IMG/VR virus record: IMGVR_UViG_3300042914_001924
Location: 1 to 35,371 of that record
Direction: 5' to 3' (one strand)
Source: a virus
DNA length: 35,371 nucleotides
Position numbers and translations under genes: made by a program. Under the pieces are notes generated by a model that searched no databases, was not told the DNA's origin, and saw only the letters and a program-made list of their open reading frames with translations. Position 1 is the first letter of the stretch. Each line of letters begins with the position of its first letter. This document shows, one piece after another, positions 3,832 through 23,136 of the stretch.

Positions 3832-6099
3832 TTACCCATTGTCATATCCATCATCAAATCCTGCATCGAATGCTCCACCCAAGGCAGAATCTAAATTAGA
3901 CATTAGTAAGGTGAAATTGGTTGTACCACCGGAGGCATCTTCTGGCTGATTGGTCGCATTGGTGATGAATCCCTCAATGACCAGACTTCCAGAAGTGAGC
4001 CGAACCTTCCGGTATTGCTCATCTTGGCTCAAAGTTAAGAAATCGCACAGACTTTGTGGATAACTAAAATTGACTTCAATGGGTTTGAATAAATAATCTT
4101 TGTAGGCATCAGCCAGAATCAGAGGAGAGATAGGATAGTTCTCATTTACTGCCTGACTTGGTAAAGCAAACATCTCACAAATCACATAGCCAGGGTCAAC
4201 TGAACTAACAAAGGTTGTCTGGTACTGCCCAACCTGGTAACGCAGATTAGGATATGGATAGGCAACAGTCAGTGGCACTCCATAGGTATGCATACCTAAG
4301 ACCTTCCACCAGCGATAGGCAACCCTTGCAGGAGTGTGGTAGATATTGTAAAGTCCATCCAGAAAGCCACTATTGTTTCCAGAAACATCCGAACTCAAGC
4401 TCACTGTGCCTGGTAAGAATACAATTGAGCCAGTCTCATCCGGTAGAGCATACTCTGATGTTTCAATTGGATTGATGGTCAGGTCATCATTATTGAGCCA
4501 GATAATGAATATGTCATAGTCATTAGGTCTGTCTGATGTCGCTCCTCCATAAGTAATGTCTGACATCCTACGGTAAAACTCAATGCACATCCCTTCTGCT
4601 ATAATTTCAGACCTCAAGTCTTCTTTAGCAGAAGAGCCTTCATTCATTGCTTTGTTTGGCACAAAGTAATTGCGGTCAGTATGCACAGCATAAGTACCAG
4701 TTAGCTGAATGTTCTTCCACTTGTCGGTATAGCCAAGGGTAAAGTTGTTTTTAAGAATATCGACCTTGGCTATTTGGTCTATCTCTCCGACATTGGCAAA
4801 GGTCTGGCTAAGTAAGTTCTGGTAGAAGTACTCTCTTGGCTCAACTCTGATTTTCCACTCTGACCCAGTCCATTCAAATGCCCATCCAAGGCAGAAGATT
4901 TTATCCAGATTGTCAAAGCTAAACTTCCAAGATGTCTTTAGCTGCTCATATCCTGATGTATCAGCAGAACCTCTTATTCTTAGTCCATTGGTTAGGGCAT
5001 TATTCCAGTAGCAACCACCACCAGTTTCACTGAAGGTATCTGATAGCAGCTTATTGTTGCTACCAGTCATAATATAGATTGCACGGTTTAGCCATTCTTC
5101 AATGGTTAGTACATCACAAAGAGAAGCAAATTGAGAATTGCTTTTTTCAGTCAACTTAAAGCTGACAATATCAATTGTGACATCAGAATTGAATGGATTG
5201 CCAAGATAGCTTGCATAAACTAAAAGATTAAGCTTGATACCTGGGTTTACACAAAGCTGAACATTGGTAAAGCTAATGTTATAGGTTTGAACTCCTGGTC
5301 CTTGAGTTGTATTTAAAATATATGTTGGAGTGCCAGGAACATTCCCATTAAAGTCTAAAAAATATACTTGAACATCAACAGTGTTTGTTGGATGATTATT
5401 TTGAACTGTTAATTCAAAGCTTCCAGTAGCATCTACACACCTTGCAAATCCTCCATTATTGACAAAAAATGGACTTGATCCCCATGTTGCTGGCTGAATA
5501 AAAGTCAAGTCAGTGTTAAAGGTAGAGCCATACTGTTCCTTAAAGTCAGATGTTGTATAGTAAATTGGAACAATTACATCCTGATTATTAGCCTGACTGT
5601 GAGTCCTTACACTATATGACTTTGCAAATGCCTCTAAATAAAGTTCTTGCTTGTGCATCCGAATATTTCGGAAAGTCAGTGCCGAAATAGTGTCATCATT
5701 CAAGTCCTTTGTGCCATTCAGGTCAATCTCCACATCCTGCCTTGACTTGAATTGCTCCCTAAACTCATCATCAATGATGCCTACGGTAATCTCCCATGAA
5801 TCCGTGTCGCACACATTATGCTCCTGGTAGATTGCCATGTTCAGGAATCCCTGAAATTCATAAGGCGCATTGTTATAGCCTACATCAGAGGTGATGGTAA
5901 TGGCAATAGGCTGATTGATAAAGTATTGGTCAAAGATTGACTTGATATACCTTGCTCCTCGCTCATAGAACTTAACCTCAGTACTGAATGGCTGATCTAT
6001 GCCATGCGATTCCATTCTGACTGCTGTGAACTCCACGGCATCCCAGCCAATCGGTTCTTCAACCTCAATGCCATCAAGGTAAAACTTCCAGTTTGCCAT
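3832..6099 (-). CDS. Distal tail / baseplate hub-like protein
   Basis: 755-residue protein encoded immediately after the tape measure; its ATG shares a base with the tape measure stop (TAATG). The N-terminus (about 1-160), with alternating beta-type sequence and the segment FYERGARYIKSIFDQY, is plausible for a Dit-like or hub fold. Residues about 200-300 contain an asparagine- and threonine-rich beta segment like a carbohydrate-binding insertion. In siphophages this slot holds the distal tail protein or tail-associated hub that links tube and fibre, so I infer that role; sequence alone does not identify the family. Confidence 0.7.
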   Translation of the reverse strand: MANWKFYLDGIEVEEPIGWDAVEFTAVRMESHGIDQPFSTEVKFYERGARYIKSIFDQYFINQPIAITITSDVGYNNAPYEFQGFLNMAIYQEHNVCDTDSWEITVGIIDDEFREQFKSRQDVEIDLNGTKDLNDDTISALTFRNIRMHKQELYLEAFAKSYSVRTHSQANNQDVIVPIYYTTSDFKEQYGSTFNTDLTFIQPATWGSSPFFVNNGGFARCVDATGSFELTVQNNHPTNTVDVQVYFLDFNGNVPGTPTYILNTTQGPGVQTYNISFTNVQLCVNPGIKLNLLVYASYLGNPFNSDVTIDIVSFKLTEKSNSQFASLCDVLTIEEWLNRAIYIMTGSNNKLLSDTFSETGGGCYWNNALTNGLRIRGSADTSGYEQLKTSWKFSFDNLDKIFCLGWAFEWTGSEWKIRVEPREYFYQNLLSQTFANVGEIDQIAKVDILKNNFTLGYTDKWKNIQLTGTYAVHTDRNYFVPNKAMNEGSSAKEDLRSEIIAEGMCIEFYRRMSDITYGGATSDRPNDYDIFIIWLNNDDLTINPIETSEYALPDETGSIVFLPGTVSLSSDVSGNNSGFLDGLYNIYHTPARVAYRWWKVLGMHTYGVPLTVAYPYPNLRYQVGQYQTTFVSSVDPGYVICEMFALPSQAVNENYPISPLILADAYKDYLFKPIEVNFSYPQSLCDFLTLSQDEQYRKVRLTSGSLVIEGFITNATNQPEDASGGTTNFTLLMSNLDSALGGAFDAGFDDGYDNG

Positions 6100-8636: not shown

Positions 8637-8650
8637 GCCCCAAAGATAGC

Positions 8651-8679
8651 AAAGAAAAAAGCCACCGGAATCCAGTGGC
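8651..8679 (-). terminator. Intrinsic terminator between chaperone and tape measure genes
   Basis: On the minus strand GCCACTGG-ATT-CCGGTGGC forms an 8-bp stem (one G·T pair) with a 3-base loop, followed by TTTTTTCTTT. This is a classic intrinsic terminator placed after the chaperone genes and before the tape measure ATG. It may partly reduce tape measure expression relative to upstream genes. A candidate -7 box, TATCTTTG, follows it at 8641-8648. Confidence 0.75.
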
Positions 8680-8719
8680 TCTTTCGGTTCTGAAATCTAA
8701 ACCAAAACAAGATGACAAT

Positions 8720-9004
8720 TCATGATGCCTTACTTCTTTTTTTCTTTTGCTCCGCAATATAGCTGCTTACTATCAGATAGTACTCGTAGATTGGTCTTTC
8801 GACCAGGAACTTAATTCTTTGAGCATCTCCACCTGCAACTCTAAACTGCTCATCAAATCTTTGTCTGTGCTGTCTTGTGATTGAAGTCCAATAATGTGTT
8901 TCAGGTTGTTTAGGCTTTGGAGAGTTTCTGCCTGCAAATAGGTCGGGAAATTCTTGCTGTATTCTGTCAAAGAGGGCAGAAAAGCGTACTCCGGCAGATT
9001 CAAA
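8720..9004 (-). CDS. Frameshift extension of the tail assembly chaperone (-1 frame)
   Basis: At 9002-9010 the minus strand reads GG followed by nine T after a G (codons GGT TTT TTT TTG), an ideal slippery run. A -1 slip there opens a frame of 94 further codons ending at TGA 8722-8720, giving a 268-aa fusion instead of the 250-aa unshifted protein. The extension looks like a true protein: PKPKQPETHYW, RQRFDEQFRVAGGDAQRIKF and ERPIYEYYLIVSSYIAEQ, the last resembling the ends of T-type tail chaperones. It uses 53 bases beyond the zero-frame stop that are otherwise non-coding. Position just before the tape measure fits lambda G/GT. A homopolymer sequencing error is the alternative. Confidence 0.75.
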   Translation of the reverse strand, partial: FESAGVRFSALFDRIQQEFPDLFAGRNSPKPKQPETHYWTSITRQHRQRFDEQFRVAGGDAQRIKFLVERPIYEYYLIVSSYIAEQKKKRSKAS

Positions 9005-9525
9005 AAAAAACCCTCCACATCATTGTGCTTCATCCAATGCTCAAGCTTCTGCTTATTGTATGGGTATTGGTAGTCGAGTGGATTCTCCTGCTCATCAAAG
9101 TAAACAACAGTAGCCAGCTTTAGCTGCCTTACCATGCTCACGGACATATCCATCTGCTCCTTTAGTCTGGAGGCAAGGATGCCTATCTCATAAAGCTTCT
9201 TGTCATCCTTCTTCTTCTTGTCCAGGAGCAGGTTTATCAGTCCATTGTTCCAGCCTTTAAGGAAGTCTGGGTTGATTTGCCATAGCTCCTCAGTGAAGAT
9301 GTCTCTTGCTGCTACTGCCCTCTGGAATGGCACATTGACCTCTGCGGTGAACCTAAAGTAATTAATGCCTCCAGAGGTGAAGGCAAACTCAATCTGATCC
9401 CATCTGTCCTTAGGAGCTACACCCCTGTAAAGTATTCTGCTGCCTTGTTCTTGTATAGGAGCTTCTTCTGCCACTTGTTGAGCAGGAGCAGCACCATGTG
9501 ATTTGCGCCTAAATAAATTGAGCAT
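8773..9525 (-). CDS. Tail assembly chaperone, unshifted product
   Basis: 250-residue protein just upstream of the tape measure. The N-terminus (1-30) is basic then proline/alanine/glutamate-rich. The middle (about 35-170) is a mixed fold with an acidic-basic segment LLDKKKKDDKK. Codons 172-175 contain the nine-T slippery run; after it both the zero frame (75 codons) and the -1 frame (94 codons) stay open. By family precedent the shorter or unshifted G-type and the shifted T-type chaperones coat the tape measure and recruit tube subunits. Identification rests on position plus frameshift, not on a recognised domain. It overlaps the end of the 131-aa membrane protein gene by 109 bases; an internal later start is possible. 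Confidence 0.75.
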   Translation of the reverse strand: MLNLFRRKSHGAAPAQQVAEEAPIQEQGSRILYRGVAPKDRWDQIEFAFTSGGINYFRFTAEVNVPFQRAVAARDIFTEELWQINPDFLKGWNNGLINLLLDKKKKDDKKLYEIGILASRLKEQMDMSVSMVRQLKLATVVYFDEQENPLDYQYPYNKQKLEHWMKHNDVEGFFLNLPEYAFLPSLTEYSKNFPTYLQAETLQSLNNLKHIIGLQSQDSTDKDLMSSLELQVEMLKELSSWSKDQSTSTI

Positions 9526-22004: not shown

Positions 22005-22667
22005 TTACCCTGTATGATGTATTGAACTGCGAAGCATGCCTGAAGTGCCTCGCTCCTGATAGACAATGGCTGGCTTAAAGCCATAGGCATTGCAATCGCT
22101 TTGCATGTCAGCAGTCATGGCATCAAGACCATTATTCTGCACAACAGTGCGCTGCAACCAATCTAATGCACAATGATTGGTAATGATGTAGGCATGAGTC
22201 AACCACATGCCATCACCTTTCCAGAGATCAGGCAGCTCAGGTATCTCAAATTTTGAGATAGTCTGCTCCTTATAGCCTGCATAATAATTCCAGCCAAGGT
22301 GTAGAAAGTCAAAGTCAGGCAGCTTATCCCAATGCTCTACCAGATTCTGAAGTTTATCCCATTCAAATCTGGCATCATCCTCCAGAACCAATGCTCTTTC
22401 ATGCCCATTTTGGACAATTTTTGTCCAAACTTCCCGGTGTGATGCACAGCATCCAATTTCTCCAATTGACATATTAGGTCTCTTTCTTGACCTCTTTAGG
22501 CTATTGTCAACCACATGCCCAGGCTTATTACCATCATTGGCTATGTGCCACTGAGCAGGCTTGCCATTTGCATCGGTCAGACCTTTCAAGTGCTGGAGAA
22601 GTCTATTCCTCCGTTGACTTGCTTTTTGCAGACTTATAAAGTAGATAGCATCAACAGGCAACCTCAC
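22005..22667 (-). CDS. Glycosyltransferase family 25 (LPS-type)
   Basis: 220 residues with GT25 landmarks: VDAIYFISLQKASQRR at the start, GEIGCCASHREVW at about 69-81, and LVLEDDA at about 94-99 holding the metal/nucleotide-binding acidic cluster. A longer frame reaches ATG 22784 but would overlap the neighbouring gene by 134 bases. GTG 22667 is preceded by GGAAAGGATT, a good ribosome binding site, and overlaps the upstream stop by 17 bases, so I choose it. GT25 enzymes transfer sugars (often galactose) to LPS or to hydroxylysine. Its place inside the head operon suggests a virion or host-surface target; the substrate is unknown. Confidence 0.82.
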   Translation of the reverse strand: MRLPVDAIYFISLQKASQRRNRLLQHLKGLTDANGKPAQWHIANDGNKPGHVVDNSLKRSRKRPNMSIGEIGCCASHREVWTKIVQNGHERALVLEDDARFEWDKLQNLVEHWDKLPDFDFLHLGWNYYAGYKEQTISKFEIPELPDLWKGDGMWLTHAYIITNHCALDWLQRTVVQNNGLDAMTADMQSDCNAYGFKPAIVYQERGTSGMLRSSIHHTG

Positions 22668-23136
22668 AGCTAATCCTTTCCGTGACAGAGAAGTCAATTG
22701 AGAAGAAGCTGGTCTCAAAGTTTCGCTCGGGTAGTCCGAAATATTGATTGGCGATTGCTTTGGAGTTGTAGTCCGTACCTGCATAAGTTATGCCTTTTGT
22801 TCTGTTGATTATGGATGTGATGCCAAACTCAGCATTTTCATAGTTGCTGTTGGCTATAAGTTTAAAGTTTACTGTCCTGAGTAGGCTATTGGCTCTGCCT
22901 CCGGCTGGAGATGTTTCTACTGAAGCTGATTCTCTGACAAAGAACACAACCAGAGGATAGGTATCATTGACAGCGCAATAGGTTTGCCCATCCTTGGTTA
23001 CATAATTGCCTGCACTGCCCTCCAGAATGCTCTCCACAGCCTCGCCATAGTTGAGCATATTGTTGACAAATGTTCCTGCCAGATTCTCGCAGAGAGCCTT
23101 TAGAGCAGATTCAACAGTGACTTTTGTAACAATCAT
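22651..23136 (-). CDS. Neck/tail-completion-like protein (161 aa)
   Basis: 161 residues with an N-terminal helix-turn (VESALKALCENLAGTFVNNML) and a beta-rich body containing YPLVVFFVRESASV and NSLLRTVNFKLIANS. The size and pattern resemble small head-tail joining or tail-terminator proteins, and it is coupled by ATGA to the 179-aa gene of likely tail-completion type. Its stop overlaps the GT25 start by 17 bases. Role inferred from neighbours and fold impression. Confidence 0.55.
   Translation of the reverse strand: MIVTKVTVESALKALCENLAGTFVNNMLNYGEAVESILEGSAGNYVTKDGQTYCAVNDTYPLVVFFVRESASVETSPAGGRANSLLRTVNFKLIANSNYENAEFGITSIINRTKGITYAGTDYNSKAIANQYFGLPERNFETSFFSIDFSVTERISCEVAC

Follow-up and report, generated by a model that had tools for sequence, protein, structure and literature searches.

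Many tailed phages make use of G/GT frameshifting, which is widespread among them (PMC5009743; PMC4493119), and in TP901-1 a locked GT fusion led to non-infectious particles (PMC4493119). In the systems measured on the records, the unshifted product ends shortly after the slip: lambda and HK97 each have ~6 zero-frame codons beyond it, and P2 has ~7. In lambda the slip occurs on GGGAAAG and the tape measure gene follows right after; P2 gpE/gpE+E' shifts by -1 on a T-rich site (T_TTT_TTG) and is immediately followed by the putative tail length gene T, and its products comprise 91 aa plus a short extension; HK97 gp13/gp14 makes two products through a -1 shift on GGGAAAAG near the tape measure gene, with a moron gene lying between and predicted terminators nearby. 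Outside tail assembly, a homopolymer slip on A or T runs likewise yields two proteins with a common N-terminus in dnaX tau/gamma and in the recoding of IS elements.

The locus analysed here lies in the metagenomic virus record IMGVR_UViG_3300042914_001924, of which positions 1 to 35,371, the whole stretch analysed, are referred to as the window. Like lambda G/GT, it consists of a gene that immediately precedes the tape measure gene, with a predicted -1 slip, a common N-domain and a -1 tail at the T position; it shares with P2 the T-rich site and the predicted -1 shift directly upstream of the tail length gene, and with HK97 the predicted -1 shift, the two probable products, the tape measure gene close by and a terminator-like element. 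Unlike in all three, its slip on T_TTT_TTT is followed by a conserved zero-frame tail of 76 codons (67-85 in relatives), so that the contrast with lambda drawn in a preliminary description of this sequence was borne out by measurement; sequence homology to lambda G/GT was not found. Compared with dnaX and the IS elements, the function differs, and the present locus retains long, selected coding beyond the slip in both frames. The G/GT-like -1 slip is of a known type, and the long conserved zero-frame tail after it appears to be new; a small survey of open-access papers brought up no description of a tail chaperone whose tail is dual-coding over a long stretch. The features concerned are as follows.

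9002..9010, minus strand: slippery T9 run with the heptamer T_TTT_TTT (9010-9004); zero-frame codons GGT TTT TTT TTG
8773..9525, minus strand: zero-frame ORF of 250 aa, probable G-like tail assembly chaperone; full length kept in relatives
8720..9004, minus strand: -1-frame extension, GT-like, of 94 residues, the first encoded by the TTT that follows the slip; stop codon 8722-8720
8776..9003, minus strand: dual-coding stretch of 76 zero-frame codons; wobble sites suppressed in both frames
8655..8685, minus strand: hairpin resembling an intrinsic terminator, in the gap that separates the chaperone and tape measure genes; a similar GC hairpin with T run in the relatives L234, L260 and L274
6099..8636, minus strand: next gene downstream, which encodes an 845-aa tape measure protein (match to phrog_2335, tail length tape measure protein, with E 2.3e-47)

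The 250-aa zero-frame product is composed of a 174-aa N-domain and a 76-aa tail (LNLPEYAF...STSTI), and the -1 tail of F plus 93 residues (ESAGVRFSALFDRI...FLVERPIYEYYLIVSSYIAEQKKKRSKAS), which gives a -1 fusion of 174 + 94 = 268 aa; the same 228 bases encode two different protein ends. The T9 run with its codons, the 94-codon -1 frame, the 268-aa fusion and the near-equal lengths of the two products (250 vs 268 aa) are all present as the preliminary description had stated. Its zero frame is likewise open after the slip, for 76 codons rather than the 75 given, and its -1 tail was read in the right frame but extends beyond the quoted ...YIAEQ to ...YIAEQKKKRSKAS. We consider it probable that this one gene gives rise to two tail-assembly chaperones by a -1 slip on T_TTT_TTT, with alternative C-terminal tails.

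The main alternative raised earlier was a miscounted homopolymer, and homopolymers are error-prone in a window that is a single metagenomic virus record; a homopolymer or assembly error would mean that the true gene is one continuous frame. Relatives were collected by searching IMG/VR with the zero-frame protein, and by further searches with the N-domain alone, which included a distant set of relatives, with the -1 tail alone and with the tail of L084, a relative considered below. The search with the zero-frame protein returned 80 loci, each of which has an in-phase run of exactly T9 and ends its zero frame near codon 250. Among 116 distinct relatives, ranging down to ~60% aa identity and drawn from many metagenomes, exactly T9 was found in 113, and the remaining three (L274, L277 and L285) carry T7 in the same phase, that is, the bare T_TTT_TTT heptamer, followed by an A (codons GAT TTT TTT ATT); the slippery heptamer positions are invariant. 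After the slip, the zero frame runs for 67-85 codons and the -1 frame for 90-102 codons, both frames being open in nearly all relatives. The subsets from the N-domain-only and -1-tail-only searches, which exert no selection for the zero-frame tail, displayed the same T run and two open frames, and all 11 clusters below 75% nt identity keep both frames open. The cellular genomes of GTDB, when scanned, yielded no relative. The exceptions to the two-frame layout are L084, L300 and the truncated contigs L120, L138 and L261. The conservation of T9 in 113 of the 116 relatives, with T7 in phase in the other three, refutes the miscount, and homologues all lacking the second frame, the other outcome considered in the preliminary description, were not what was found, as the -1 frame is open in nearly all relatives.

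An observation in this set that speaks for a continuous frame is L084 (IMGVR_UViG_3300007169_001207, 426-1247), which retains T9 but carries a -1-type tail joined to the N-domain in the zero frame. The frames are joined by a single additional base in comparison with L232, which has nearly the same tail DNA in the normal two-frame layout. With a window-type N-domain and an L232-type tail, L084 looks like the outcome of recombination, of a chimeric assembly or of an indel; from the fusion it is evident that this N-domain and the -1 tail belong together. Since selection in both frames, described below, is also not expected from a single frame, an error in the homopolymer or the assembly was rejected and has next to no probability. 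In L300, one base is lost around position 4470, just upstream of the T run, and both tails are intact; this deletion is either an error or the mark of a broken gene.

Selection on the two frames was then assessed from the substitution pattern. In the -1 overlap geometry, the -1 wobble base is the second base of the zero frame, and the zero-frame wobble base is the first base of the -1 frame. Parsimony changes per site, counted on a tree of 106 sequences, amounted to 4.8, 2.6 and 18.6 (18.55) at codon positions 1, 2 and 3 in the upstream single-coding part, to 8.2 (-1 position 1, the zero-frame wobble), 3.3 and 5.8 (5.84; -1 position 3) in the overlap, and to 7.7, 9.0 and 20.0 past the zero-frame stop, where the -1 frame is the sole coding frame. 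The -1 wobble is hence suppressed in the overlap both against the upstream part (p = 3e-21) and against the part past the zero-frame stop (p = 4e-8), and the zero-frame wobble is suppressed against the upstream part (8.2 vs 18.55, p = 2e-14), these p-values being descriptive as they assume independent sites. Counted codon by codon, the -1 wobble changes jump at codon 75-76, which is the zero-frame stop. The two tails are about equally conserved, with a mean aa identity of 68% for the zero-frame tail and 66% for the -1 tail. Purifying selection on both frames of the overlap is strongly supported by this pattern, and no simple single-frame explanation would account for the step at the stop together with the two-way suppression. 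The earlier claim that about 230 bases code for two proteins is in this way upheld by the comparative data, through both the open frames and the substitutions.

These counts also bear on the reading that the -1 tail alone is functional, with the zero-frame tail accidentally open or the wobble sites held by RNA structure. Synonymous shuffles of a single sequence indicated that the zero frame would be open by accident with a probability of 0.01-0.43 given the -1 amino acids, and that in the reverse case the -1 frame would be open by chance with a probability of at most 0.02. Because a chance-open zero frame is that frequent, one sequence is not proof of dual coding, but persistence across the 11 clusters is. 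Within the first 66 aligned codons, zero-frame stops occur in none of the 106 aligned sequences. Moreover, the suppression stops at the zero-frame stop, and the first 60 nt are without a conserved fold. An accidental zero frame was rejected on the substitution pattern, and we regard this reading as a whole as very improbable.

The position of the frame switch could be narrowed down from the -1 frame itself, which in 101 of the 106 sequences meets a stop 3-6 codons before the slip, with the T-run codons counted; of the other five, one is closed at 2 codons and four open a little further up (8, 16, 29 and 29). With the -1 frame closed just upstream in nearly all sequences, the switch must sit at or very near the T run, where the preliminary description had placed it, and the comparative data strongly support this. 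A separate start for the -1 tail was considered and rejected, as no start codon is common to the sequences save a TTG, which 34 of the 106 have at codon 66. Programmed -1 ribosomal frameshifting, by a tandem slip on T_TTT_TTT, offers the best fit as the mechanism. The majority of ribosomes would read T_TTT_TTT_TTG in frame and make the 250-aa protein, while a fraction would slip back one base on T_TTT_TTT, with two tRNA-Phe re-pairing perfectly, and make the 268-aa protein. By analogy with lambda gpG, the 174-aa N-domain common to both would coat the tape measure protein. The C-terminal domains would be mutually exclusive, being either the 76-aa zero-frame tail or the 94-aa -1 tail, and the latter would stand where lambda has its T domain, the part responsible for recruiting the tail tube protein; the two tails would then split the roles between them.

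RNA folding around the slip was examined as well. In six relatives (L274, L277, L285, L255, L270 and L281), which comprise the clade of all three with T7 and its close kin, a 9-10-bp stem-loop (CUCCCGGAG/CUCUGGGAG) lies 5-6 nt after the heptamer, the usual place of a stimulator, with z down to -3.7; it is possible that the T7 relatives have traded run length for stimulator strength. No stimulator RNA common to the family was found, as the consensus fold is empty and the folding energies have a median at background level; with no structure conserved across the family, a stimulator is not general. A Shine-Dalgarno-like stimulator was rejected, the GGAGGG that abuts the T run in the window not being conserved in relatives. 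An Rfam CsrC match at 8643-8837 (minus strand), at 21 against a gathering score of 61 bits, is probably due to chance and was set aside.

The same two proteins would also result from programmed transcriptional slippage, in which transcription of the T9 run would yield mRNAs with a U too many or too few, and normal translation of this mixture would give both products. Such slippage on bacterial runs of 9 A or T is documented (PMC5009743), and it would agree with the lack of a general RNA stimulator and with the retention, in 113 of 116 relatives, of a run longer than the heptamer needs, although the codon needs of two frames may also keep T9. The runs on which transcriptional slippage occurs are, however, typically of 8 or more (PMC3711429), and because the three T7 relatives, all of one clade, lie below this length and keep both frames, this clade favours the ribosome; it also bears the strong stem-loop at stimulator spacing, and the phase of the heptamer is exactly right for a tandem -1 slip. 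Slippage by the polymerase is accordingly considered unlikely, and ribosomal frameshifting is retained as the favoured mechanism.

As to the identity of the proteins, a tape-measure-like start lies 36-124 nt downstream in 69 of 103 relatives under a strict motif, and from this position and the G/GT logic the gene most likely makes G/GT-like tail assembly chaperones. The term tail chaperone, as used in the preliminary description, thus finds indirect support in the adjacency to the tape measure gene and the G/GT-like logic, but it is not backed by a sequence or fold homologue: sequence and profile searches of PHROGs, Pfam, PDB and INPHARED phages gave no match to either product, and Foldseek searches with the models returned nothing below E 0.001, the BFVD matches being weak and non-significant. 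AlphaFold2 was applied to the 250-aa form and to the continuous L084 form; the models, of moderate confidence (mean pLDDT 65), predict an N-domain of a beta hairpin and helices, a zero-frame tail forming a helical hairpin (186-214, 222-247) and a helical -1 tail. In the cultured Leeuwenhoekiella phage Arctus_1 and Polaribacter phage P12002S, which have the same tape measure type, the genes upstream of the tape measure gene displayed no more than short frame overlaps at the tested ends.

Both proteins might instead be real frame-switch products with another role, for example as other morphogenesis or virion proteins. They share no homology with any tail chaperone family, and no tail tube protein was recognised just upstream, where a small membrane-like ORF is found instead. 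Tail chaperones are nevertheless known for low sequence similarity (PMC5009743), and the adjoining tape measure gene, together with a shared N-domain and a -1 extension as in G/GT, is what a chaperone gene would display, so that a non-chaperone role appears distinctly unlikely. The upstream ORFs at 10204-9809 and 9812-9417 have no confident family match; the latter, of 131 aa, is membrane-like with a CPFCSGAWQ motif, and overlaps the start of the chaperone gene (9417-9525, minus strand) by 109 nt in a different frame. This 5' overlap is retained in relatives, mostly at 64-109 nt, and the chaperone gene thus seems to be dual-coding at both ends.

Taking the gene as one for two chaperones, we tentatively suggest, as an idea that falls somewhat short of an even chance, that the zero-frame tail functions as a domain in its own right and has a partner of its own, and that the slip switches between two C-terminal domains similar in size and perhaps also in abundance, a splice-like pair encoded on 228 bases. 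In the measured G/GT systems the frameshift adds a domain, whereas in the window phage one selected domain would be exchanged for another. An own function of the G-side tail, and control of tail assembly by the ratio of the two chaperones, thereby become testable. With more than 100 sequences, the locus is a clear natural case of overlapping frames made by recoding in a DNA phage, both under selection, of which standard gene callers would report just one protein.

The cultured matches of the next structural gene are exclusively Polaribacter phages, and the best-covered match of the tape measure protein is a Leeuwenhoekiella phage; on these matches, the host is probably a member of the Bacteroidota. 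The window also carries a gene of glycosyltransferase family 25 (LPS biosynthesis) at 22005-22784 on the minus strand (Pfam PF01755, E 1.9e-20).
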